Shown here in pieces: positions 46,695-48,865 of a stretch of 64,000 nucleotides of DNA. The position numbers and the translations under genes were made by a program. The notes below the pieces were generated by a model. That model saw only the letters and a program-made list of their open reading frames with translations. It was not told the DNA's origin and did no database searches. The stretch comes from Oceanospirillum maris DSM 6286. GTDB lineage: Bacteria; Pseudomonadota; Gammaproteobacteria; Pseudomonadales; Halomonadaceae. Position 1 is the stretch's first letter. Every line of letters starts with the position of its first letter. The DNA lies in assembly GCF_000422865.1 (NCBI RefSeq), contig NZ_KE383936.1, positions 158,146-222,145 on the forward strand. The letters run 5' to 3'.

Positions 46695-47852
46695 ATGCAG
46701 ATGGCATTAACCGAAGAGCAGCAGATGATTCAGGATATGGCGCGTAAATTCGCCGAGACTGAATTAGAGCCAATGGCAGCAGAGCTGGATAAAACCGGCA
46801 ACCGTGAGGTGCTACTGTCCAACCTAAAAAAATTAGCCGATCTTGGTTTTATGGGCTTAAACGTCAAAGCGGAATATGGCGGCTCTGAAGCCGGTGTTGT
46901 TGCTTTTAGCGTTGCGATGACAGAAATTGCCCGAGCCTGTGCCTCTACCGCCGTTACGATGTCAGTCACTAACATGGTGGCCGAAGTGATTCAGGAAGTG
47001 GGTAACGAAGAGCAGCGCCAGAAGTATATTCCTAAAATATGCAGTGGGGAATTTGCCGCAGGTAGTTTCTGTTTAAGTGAAGCGAATGCTGGGTCAGATC
47101 CTTCCGGTATGCGTGCCAGTGCCATTAAAGATGGCGAAGACTGGGTGATCAACGGTGCTAAGCAGTGGATCAGTAGCGCTGAATACGCCGGTGTTTTTGT
47201 GGTCTGGGCGGTGACCGATAAAGATGCCCCTAAAGGTAAAGGTATCTCCTGCTTTTTAGTTGATGCGGATAACCCTGGTGTCACTATCAGCAAAGCAGAA
47301 GAAAAAATGGGCCAAAAGGCCTCTGCGACTAACGAAGTCGTGTTTGATAACTGCCGCGTGCCGGACTCTGCCATTATGGGCAAGTTAAATGATGGTTTCC
47401 GCATTGCCGTGGCTGAACTGGCGGGAGGGCGCATTGGTATCGGCTCACTGGCGCTAGGCATTGGTAGTGCGGCTATGGATTATGCGGCGCGTTATACCAA
47501 AGAGCGGGAACAGTTTGGTAAGCCGCTATCCAGCTTTCAAGGGCTGCAATGGATGATGGCGGATCATTATACCGAGCTTGAAGCGGCGCGCTTGTTGCTA
47601 ATGAGTGCCGCTTGGAAGAAAGAACAAGGCCTACCCTTTGCCAAAGAAGCGTCAATGGCCAAACTCTATGCCACTGAAAAAGCTAATACTGCCTGCTACA
47701 GTGCACTGCAGCTTATGGGTGGCAACGGCTACGTCAAAGAGTACCCGCTGGAACGCTTCGCCCGTGATGCCCGTGTCACCACTATTTATGAAGGTACTAG
47801 TGAGATTCAACGAGTGATTATCGCCCGTGAAATTTTGAAAGATCTTGGTTAA
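46695..47852 (+). CDS. Acyl-CoA dehydrogenase
   Basis: A 385-residue flavoprotein that introduces the alpha-beta double bond in acyl-CoA. Family blocks: FCLSEANAGSDPSGMRA, WVINGAKQWISSAEYAG, YTKEREQFGKPLSSFQG, QLMGGNGYVKEYPLERFARD and the catalytic Glu in TIYEGTSEIQRVIIAR. GAGG lies nine bases before ATG 46695; a second ATG two codons later is possible. Last gene of the operon; with the SDR and a thiolase it would complete a short- or branched-chain beta-oxidation spiral. Confidence 0.93.
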   Translation: MQMALTEEQQMIQDMARKFAETELEPMAAELDKTGNREVLLSNLKKLADLGFMGLNVKAEYGGSEAGVVAFSVAMTEIARACASTAVTMSVTNMVAEVIQEVGNEEQRQKYIPKICSGEFAAGSFCLSEANAGSDPSGMRASAIKDGEDWVINGAKQWISSAEYAGVFVVWAVTDKDAPKGKGISCFLVDADNPGVTISKAEEKMGQKASATNEVVFDNCRVPDSAIMGKLNDGFRIAVAELAGGRIGIGSLALGIGSAAMDYAARYTKEREQFGKPLSSFQGLQWMMADHYTELEAARLLLMSAAWKKEQGLPFAKEASMAKLYATEKANTACYSALQLMGGNGYVKEYPLERFARDARVTTIYEGTSEIQRVIIAREILKDLG

Positions 47853-47929
47853 GAGCTGTATTTTATGCTAAGACGCTTGTGATTTTAACGGATAGCGCGA
47901 AATTCCCCTTCCAAAATTATCGAGCCTAA

Positions 47930-48260
47930 GCGAGATGTTTTGGTGGGTGATGGAGCGCAACTTGCAGAGCAAGTTTTCTTATCCTATTCTTATTGGGCTT
48001 CAGGATTGCTTGAGTCGTTAGACTGCTTGGAGTATGAAAACCACAATAAACACATTATATCCTCCGTTTCTTGTCTGAGCTTATGGCTACGCGTTGTAAG
48101 CAATCCTAACCGTAAGACGGGAAAACGAATCAGTTAGCCGCCCGTTTTGGCTAGGGTGACTAATGCGGTCGGGCATGGCCGTCTAGTCGTAGGAATCCCC
48201 CACCAGAGTCAGTTTATCTGATTTAGTGGAGGGAGGATGTCAAAAGATGTGCTATTGCGC
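47930..48260 (+). ncRNA. Candidate solitary TnpB-type omega-RNA (IS200/IS605 right-end-like)
   Basis: The 3' part (48189-48243) has the conserved layout of TnpB-element right ends: GTAGGAATCCCCC, a hairpin (TCCCCCAC 48196-48203 with GTGGAGGG 48226-48233) and GGAGGATGTCAA. Upstream are GTCTAGTC, a short stem TAGCC/GGCTA and a possible pseudoknot GCCCG/CGGGC, as in omega-RNA cores. A perfect 10-base long-range stem AGGATTGCTT (48002-48011) / AAGCAATCCT (48098-48107) and a 5' hairpin AACTTGC-aga-GCAAGTT (47959-47975) complete it. The bases after GTCAA (from 48244) would be the guide. No tnpB or tnpA lies nearby. Identification is from memory of such ends. Confidence 0.6.
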
Positions 48261-48286
48261 TATGTTCTCTATTGTCTCTTGATTTA

Positions 48287-48309
48287 ACTGCCTTCGGGCG
48301 GTTTTTTTT
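48287..48309 (+). terminator. Intrinsic terminator with UUCG tetraloop
   Basis: ACTGCC-TTCG-GGCGGT (48287-48302) followed by T8. It ends any transcript from the acyl-CoA operon or the omega-RNA-like region before the flagellar promoter. Confidence 0.9.
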
Positions 48310-48463: not shown

Positions 48464-48865
48464 ATGACCGCAATTAGTTTCAAGAACGCTCTTGGTATTC
48501 ATCCTGATGCACTGCGTGTTCGCACGGAGCGATCTGAAATATTGGCCAATAATATTGCCAATTCAGATACGCCGGGCTTCAAAGCGCGGGATTTAGACTT
48601 TAAAGGCATTCTAAAGGGTGAGTATAAAAGTCGTGACCGCATGGAGCTAGAACGAACCAATGCGCGTCATATTCCCGCTGAAGCCGTTACGACAGAAAGT
48701 TCGTTGAAATATAGACTTCCTACTCAGCCTTCTGTTGATGGTAATACCGTTGAATCTGATATTGAGCAGGCGCAGTACGCTCGTAATGCTCTTGAATTCC
48801 AGTCCAGCTTTACCTTTTTGAACAGTAAGTTCAAAGGGTTAAGCAAAGCGCTGAGGAGTGAATAA
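48464..48865 (+). CDS. flgB: Flagellar basal-body rod protein FlgB
   Basis: Proximal rod subunit exported by the flagellar type III apparatus. At 133 aa it has the N-terminal rod signature RSEILANNIANSDTPGFKARDLDF and the C-terminal helix region QYARNALEFQSSFTFLNSKFKGL. GTAGGG lies about ten bases before the ATG. It is the first gene of flgBCDE, two bases before flgC. Confidence 0.97.
   Translation: MTAISFKNALGIHPDALRVRTERSEILANNIANSDTPGFKARDLDFKGILKGEYKSRDRMELERTNARHIPAEAVTTESSLKYRLPTQPSVDGNTVESDIEQAQYARNALEFQSSFTFLNSKFKGLSKALRSE

Follow-up and report, generated by a model that had tools for sequence, protein, structure and literature searches.

The 64,000-nucleotide stretch of Oceanospirillum maris DSM 6286 analyzed here (hereafter, the window) harbors a complete insertion of the IS200/IS605 type, 355 bases long (positions 47889-48243), which we identify with moderate confidence as a protein-free IS605-type transposon carrying a standalone omega-RNA scaffold that likely works in trans with the TnpB of sister elements. 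The element has recognizable ends behind a TTTAA motif, is present in two further full copies, and has sisters adjacent to tnpB and tnpA genes; the corresponding site is empty in a relative, and the scaffold is shared with other tnpB-less elements, whose stems show compensating base changes. We think that the most likely function, a predicted one, is that of a guide RNA working in trans with a TnpB from elsewhere. The element is neither a unique oddity nor a plain tnpB deletion.

Extent and parts of the insertion

The insertion is larger than the locus outlined in the preliminary description of this DNA. It starts with CGGATAGCGCG, followed by the left-end hairpin, and finishes with the right-end hairpin and GATGTCAA (Table 1); an ORF scan of the window found no ORFs of at least 80 aa inside it. 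The right-end layout reported previously, GTAGGAATCCCCC-hairpin-GGAGGATGTCAA at 48189-48243 with GTCTAGTC just 5' of it, is present as claimed, and the hairpin placed at 47959-47975 is likewise real. Position 48244, previously given as the start of the guide, is the correct one where a right end finishes in TCAA. The reportedly perfect 10-base long-range stem does form 10 of 10 pairs, but one of these is G-U, and the stem lies one base off, at 48003-48012 with 48097-48106. The letters of the proposed TAGCC/GGCTA stem and GCCCG/CGGGC pseudoknot exist as well, but the relatives favor pairing of 48133-48143 with 48154-48164; the unguided fold forms none of these three pairings. The predicted promoter boxes are missing from the site list of the promoter scan, and in the full copy on contig C20 the -35 box reads TTACAA instead of TTGCAG.

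Table 1. Features of the insertion and its immediate flanks (window coordinates)
Feature	Position	Strand	Basis or remark
TTTAA target/TAM motif, directly outside the left end	47884..47888	+	precedes 12 of the 13 left ends listed in this genome
Left end with hairpin CCAAAA (47911-47916) / TTTTGG (47938-47943)	47889..47957	+	common to tnpA- and tnpB-bearing elements
Palindrome AACTTGCAGAGCAAGTT, overlapping the predicted -35 box	47959..47975	+	sequence
Predicted promoter, TTGCAG, 17 bases, TATTCT	47962..47990	+	pattern in 8 of 9 tested elements; weak compared to the consensus
5' hairpin: outer stem TTCAGG/CTTGGA, inner hairpin GTC-GTTA-GAC	47999..48031	+	unguided fold; three copies
Block common to tnpB-less elements of other genomes (CCTCCGTTTCTTG, CAATCCTAACCGTA, CGAATCAG)	48061..48133	+	sequence comparison
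Stem 1 equivalent GTTAGCCGCCC/GGGTGACTAAT, 10/11 paired, adjoining hairpin A	48133..48164	+	pairing in relatives; absent from the minimum-energy fold
Omega-RNA hairpin A, CGGTC-GGGCAT-GGCCG	48166..48181	+	100% paired, compensatory change in tnpB-linked right ends
Omega-RNA hairpin B, CTA-GTCG-TAG	48183..48192	+	100% paired, compensatory change in both the tnpB-linked and the tnpB-less set
Right-end hairpin = terminal omega-RNA hairpin	48197..48233	+	sequence and alignment
TCAA, right cleavage motif, final bases of the element	48240..48243	+	closes 15 of the 16 right ends listed in this genome
Would-be guide AAGATGTGCTATTGCG, host flank	48244..48259	+	position directly 3' of the right end
Host terminator-like hairpin downstream of the element	48286..48303	+	also in a relative without the insert

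Genomic site and the flagellar genes

The insert is located between the terminator and the stop, at 47852, of a gene that we take to encode an acyl-CoA dehydrogenase (recognized by eye rather than by a family-library search); flgB starts at 48464, about 150 bp past the terminator. The flgB gene was found in six of the six genomes of the genus. In the genome closest by FlgB identity (G001, 94%), the dehydrogenase gene, the terminator and flgB follow in the same order and the element is absent, so that the comparison with close relatives proposed earlier yields an empty site, at which the exact junction letters have diverged. In the 650 bp preceding flgB, no element was detected in the other four regions compared (L065-L068; the neighborhood in L065 and L066 differs there), that is, none of the five other genomes of the genus has the element upstream of flgB. 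When 275 genomes from the family were searched and two candidates were scored in each, the matches found elsewhere were to the ends only; further full copies may exist among the other candidates.

These data bear directly on the possibility that the host has adopted the RNA as a guide for a nuclease-dead TnpB (TldR) acting on flagellar genes. TldR systems that act on flagellar genes exist, and the location of the element upstream of flgB was previously considered suggestive. We nevertheless regard this scenario as highly improbable, given that the five other genomes lack an element at this location, that the insert sits behind another gene with a terminator between it and flgB, and that neither a good second target nor a TldR came to light. 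A genome search for TTTAA followed by 14 guide bases, with up to 3 mismatches, produced one place besides the locus itself (a reversed-pattern control produced none), and we calculate that chance alone would yield about one place with 3 mismatches; there is thus no convincing second target for the guide. All four places in the genome that match the TnpB profile PF07282 retain the HDRD motif with its catalytic aspartate, and the two longer ones also retain GIDLG, so that a nuclease-dead TldR, which had been proposed to reside elsewhere in the genome, was not found among them. A role in flagellar control is not supported by anything in the analysis.

Copies and sister elements in the O. maris genome

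In the 3.7 Mb genome assembly (G000; 43 contigs, with the window on contig C1), a 401-base query matched 11 places: the locus itself, two full copies on C26 (97%) and C20 (93%), which bring the total to three, and partial matches. Related right ends, for which a genome search had been suggested, thus occur elsewhere in the genome. The C20 copy has lost left-end bases and one pair of hairpin A. Profile searches detected four PF07282 places and three PF01797 places, none of them on C1, which bears out the earlier observation that neither tnpB nor tnpA is nearby. On C2, C5, C27 and C10, the right end immediately follows the 3' end of a tnpB, and these tnpB 3' ends account for the four PF07282 places; the left ends on C15 and C28 precede a tnpB start, and those on C21 and C19 precede a Y1 tnpA, which is shortened on C19 and intact on C21 (132 aa; PF01797 E 3e-44), making movement by TnpA in trans possible. 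The examined tnpB copies are all incomplete and run into contig ends, which is why a whole tnpB copy was not seen in this genome.

Sharing its ends and target motif with the tnpA-bearing elements and encoding no ORF, the insert fits a non-autonomous IS200/IS605 element of the PATE/MITE kind. The earlier proposal of a MITE-like derivative of an IS605-type element hence stands, together with the related right ends; its other half, a mere relic, is not supported because the middle of the insert belongs to a recurrent tnpB-less class with compensating RNA stems (see below).

Two further observations concern this genome. A second tnpB-less right end (L044; G000:C2:283202-283310, minus strand) retains hairpins A and B intact; its terminal hairpin is short, and a stem of 7 pairs, GGTTATT/AATAACC, adjoins hairpin A. 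No left end was seen at this place. The right end of the C26 copy (L002:1830-1850) contributes GGAGG-ATG in frame with a downstream 414-aa ORF, a candidate start; this ORF, inspected by eye, presumably encodes a SerB-like protein.

The omega-RNA scaffold of tnpB-linked right ends

Model R1 was built from an alignment of 21 tnpB-linked right ends, four from the O. maris genome, one from G002 and the others from other genomes. In this set, stem 1 (AGAATG/CATTCT), which lies in the tnpB frame, is paired in 97.6% of the cells, and hairpins A and B in 100%; another helix in the tnpB frame is paired in just 67.3%, and the inner terminal stem in 79.0%. Both sides were changed in 61 cells, compared to 18.6 +- 3.3 in shuffled alignments (reached in 0 of 500) and 5-13 with the partners slid, although kinship of the rows inflates all such counts, here and in the tnpB-less set below. 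Further pair types did no better than shuffles, 97 of 500 of which reached the count.

The covariance search against TnpB omega-RNA that had been suggested for the locus returned matches both with R1 and with the leave-out model R3 described below. On the O. maris genome, R1 matched the window at 48134-48243 with 58 bits (E 9.6e-11), the C26 copy with 57.9 bits and the C20 copy with 41.5 bits; R1 was trained in part on sister right ends, and these scores therefore reflect a shared scaffold rather than an independent discovery. Rfam gave no match in the window at the gathering threshold, and relaxing the E-value added only chance-level matches.

R1 matches were present in 45 of the 390 genomes of the order. 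Several unusual arrangements also came to notice. Another family of the order contains a compact element, about 225 bp long (L101, about 634-859; G145:C3), which has a complete scaffold scoring 98.9 bits with R1 and consists of a left end behind TTTAA fused to the final part of tnpB and the right end. In genus g10, a right end lacking a TnpB match is repeated (L110-L112 and similar; L111 has less than 100 bases upstream); in L110 it is accompanied by a left end and further strong hairpins. The R1 scores of this group are weak, so its scaffold is a different one. A tnpB-less right end located shortly after a tRNA-like sequence (L178/L106; G604:C3:180704-180776) has a hairpin B, CCA-GTAG-TGG, changed on both sides. 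In G399, near-identical 74-base right ends are located at the ends of contigs C55, C126, C127, C331 and C367, which points to a multi-copy element.

A tnpB-less class in several genera

Forty stretches were fetched, and 32 places in them (31 R1 matches and L178; L173-L177 and L179-L182 were set aside) were compared with TnpB proteins. The DNA upstream of the right end gave no match at E 1e-3 in 15 places and contained tnpB or pieces of it in 10; the remaining 7 (six of G399 and L155), with less than 110 bases upstream, were too short. Among the 15 tnpB-less places, L150 (two copies), L152, L160, L165 and L161 show the whole layout: a left end or its remains, promoter-like boxes, the 5' hairpin, the shared block, a stem adjoining hairpin A, hairpins A and B, the terminal hairpin and TCAA. 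The omega half is present in L154 and L164 and interrupted in L167, and the other six places have the right-end part only. A DNA search with L152 produced matches, mostly partial, in 18 of the 37 genomes of its family, and covered most of the query in G236, G216, G194, G655 and G415. Model R2, with the copies of the window element in its training set, matched 32 of the 390 genomes, tnpB-linked scaffolds included; all 11 further R2 places that were checked lack an upstream TnpB match. L149-like and many short right-end matches were left out of this survey of the class.

The stem adjoining hairpin A pairs despite differing letters, as in GGTGTATGCC/GGCATACACT, GGTGAATCCC/GGGATTCACT, GGTTTTCCCC/GGGGAAAACT, GGAAATAC/GTATTTCT and CCTAAGAT/ATCTTAGG (strings picked by eye). 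For 11 tnpB-less elements of other genomes, which also served to train model R3 with no row of the O. maris genome, 32 cells were changed on both sides, compared to 10.0 +- 2.5 in shuffles (reached in 0 of 500) and 1-11 with the partners slid, and 6 of the 10 pairs of stem 1 underwent compensatory change. With the three O. maris copies added, the values were 46 cells, 13.2 +- 3.1 shuffled and 3-14 slid, with compensatory change in 7 of the 10 pairs of stem 1. Because tnpB is absent from these elements, coding cannot explain the compensatory changes. The alignments omit L151, L153, L159, L161, L167-L169, L178 and L044, in which the 5' half is missing, broken up or difficult to align. Of these, L161 and L044 do pair at stem 1, and L151, L153, L167 and L178 have no stem above shuffles there.

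Under the plainest reading of the insert as a non-autonomous IS605 element (PATE/MITE), only the DNA ends would matter, TnpA would act in trans and the omega-RNA part would be inert. The ends are indeed common to tnpA-bearing copies, the stems could work in single-stranded DNA, and the exact fold of the window copy is uncertain. Yet stem 1 and hairpins A and B are internal and show compensatory change in tnpB-less elements, and, as in IS608, TnpA would need the terminal hairpins only. Although such PATEs are known, as the relevant part of their description indicates (PMC3119063), we consider an inert omega-RNA part somewhat unlikely.

In the leave-out test, model positions 1-152 of R3 scored 92.2 bits for the window copy, 94.4 for the C26 copy and 74.7 for the C20 copy. 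Four tnpB-less elements likewise outside the training set, L190, L245, L246 and L248, scored 83.9-117.6 bits, and the tnpB-linked right ends of the O. maris genome 58.8-82 bits. The bulk of the window score comes from the right-end part: 47889-48165 alone obtained 17 bits (E 3.8e-5 for 277 bases). Judging by this similarity, the middle of the insert is homologous to the tnpB-less class, but remotely. We also considered a simple product of tnpB deletion and rejected it, because the middle belongs to the tnpB-less class and because the best match to the segment 47975-48165 among the other genomes of the genus did not go beyond E 0.135.

A class member would combine a promoter of its own, a 5' hairpin domain that is new and has an AUUA-type loop, an omega scaffold no longer tied to the tnpB frame, and a guide taken from the landing site. 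Chances seem to us about even that these elements are protein-free IS605 satellites forming one class, which spans at least four genera and perhaps five, each a movable RNA gene that a sister TnpA would move and a TnpB retain, so that every insertion would create a new trans-acting guide.

Fold of the window copy

The 5' hairpin has 6 of 6 outer and 3 of 3 inner pairs in all three O. maris copies, in a class-like layout. The unguided fold forms it, and the RNA is more stably folded than its shuffled versions (z -2.99, 0 of 200). In eight other rows, outer stems typed by hand are fully paired with different letters. An automated pattern for this hairpin cut the outer stems of L152, L189, L188, L206, L204 and L253 1-2 bases off and missed L187 and L252; for L152, L188/L206, L189 and L190, the hand-typed set has the correct strings.

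The score of the 48133-48143/48154-48164 stem was reached by 5 of 300 shuffles for the window copy, 3 of 300 for C26 and 1 of 300 for C20, in a test that omitted rows L150, L154, L160 and L165, where hairpin A was misplaced. Two of the 10 stem 1 pairs of R3 are broken in the window copy, and in its minimum-energy fold, GACTA/TAGTC around hairpin A replaces stem 1 and hairpin B. We hold that the scaffold of the window copy is shared by descent.

The alternative fold, together with the retention of the scaffold and the remodeling of the 5' half, could also suit a decoy, an RNA that binds TnpB without productive cutting and so dampens the sister elements. Such a decoy appears improbable to us because, in the three O. 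maris copies, the scaffold still runs into the host-derived guide position behind TCAA, as that of a working guide RNA would.

The probable partner TnpB and a proposed scheme for action in trans

In the TnpB family of L005/L070, the first RuvC aspartate was detected in 19 of 22 rows (two of the others are shortened, and one was missed by the pattern); the HDRD aspartate is present in 22 of 22, as follows from the manner in which the rows were chosen. The family has a glycine aligned at what we take to be the place of the RuvC-II glutamate of ISDra2 TnpB. Further along the protein, all 22 rows (one of them a repeat) have a glutamate within the motif [VI][NR]E, which presumably fits an alternative catalytic position. 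The partner TnpB is likely to be an active nuclease.

For the guide RNA acting in trans, we propose the following scheme. A TnpA supplied by another element, for instance the one on C21, would excise the element as single-stranded DNA and insert it behind a TTTAA elsewhere. Transcription from the predicted internal promoter would start near 47997 and proceed through the scaffold into the flank, yielding an RNA of about 250 nt. TnpB would take up this RNA, with the first 16 or so flanking bases as the guide, and cut TTTAA plus guide, that is, the site vacated by excision. Repair from the sister chromosome would then restore the copy, so that the satellite would persist at its site in the way that tnpB-bearing elements do.

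Should the RNA act in trans, site retention guided by TnpB would extend to elements without tnpB, and a single nuclease gene would serve many guide-only satellites. Such an arrangement would resemble a dispersed guide array and could plausibly be a stage on the way to the trans-encoded guides of Cas12. The remodeled scaffolds show which omega-RNA parts are kept without the constraint of the tnpB frame, which bears on the trimming of guide scaffolds.

Comparison with known systems

Standalone IscB omega-RNA loci are known and resemble the window element in being guide scaffolds without an adjoining nuclease gene; they differ in the nuclease family. The consensus of HgcC RNA (Rfam RF00062) has an end that resembles IS605-type right ends, and L152:1609-1683 showed a weak Rfam match to the archaeal HgcC RNA (21 bits, compared to the gathering threshold of 50; E 0.23); HgcC RNA was not listed for the window locus in the Rfam search. 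That HgcC RNA may itself be an omega-RNA is a lead only.

The omega-RNA of ISDra2 TnpB is similar to the window element in having a right-end scaffold with several stems, a flank-derived guide and a 3' end that coincides with the transposon end; it also has a pseudoknot between the 3' end and the 5' part (PMC10097598). In contrast, the ISDra2 omega-RNA overlaps the 3' end of tnpB (PMC10097598), whereas the window element lacks tnpB and its 5' half is remodeled.

We found no description of tnpB-less elements with a remodeled omega-RNA in the literature searched, although an earlier one is possible. PATEs and standalone guide scaffolds are already known; the tnpB-less class with a remodeled omega scaffold, extending over multiple genera, is apparently new relative to that literature. 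The PATEs of Haloquadratum walsbyi, palindrome-associated transposable elements that are protein-free IS605 derivatives, are close in DNA layout: they lack terminal inverted repeats, have near-terminal IS605-type palindromes, are too short to encode a transposase and occur in several near-identical copies (PMC3119063). Some of them are described as core-deleted IS605 elements, in passages that name no RNA (PMC3119063). The window element differs from PATEs in having at its core a structured RNA that has a separate history and recurs across genera.
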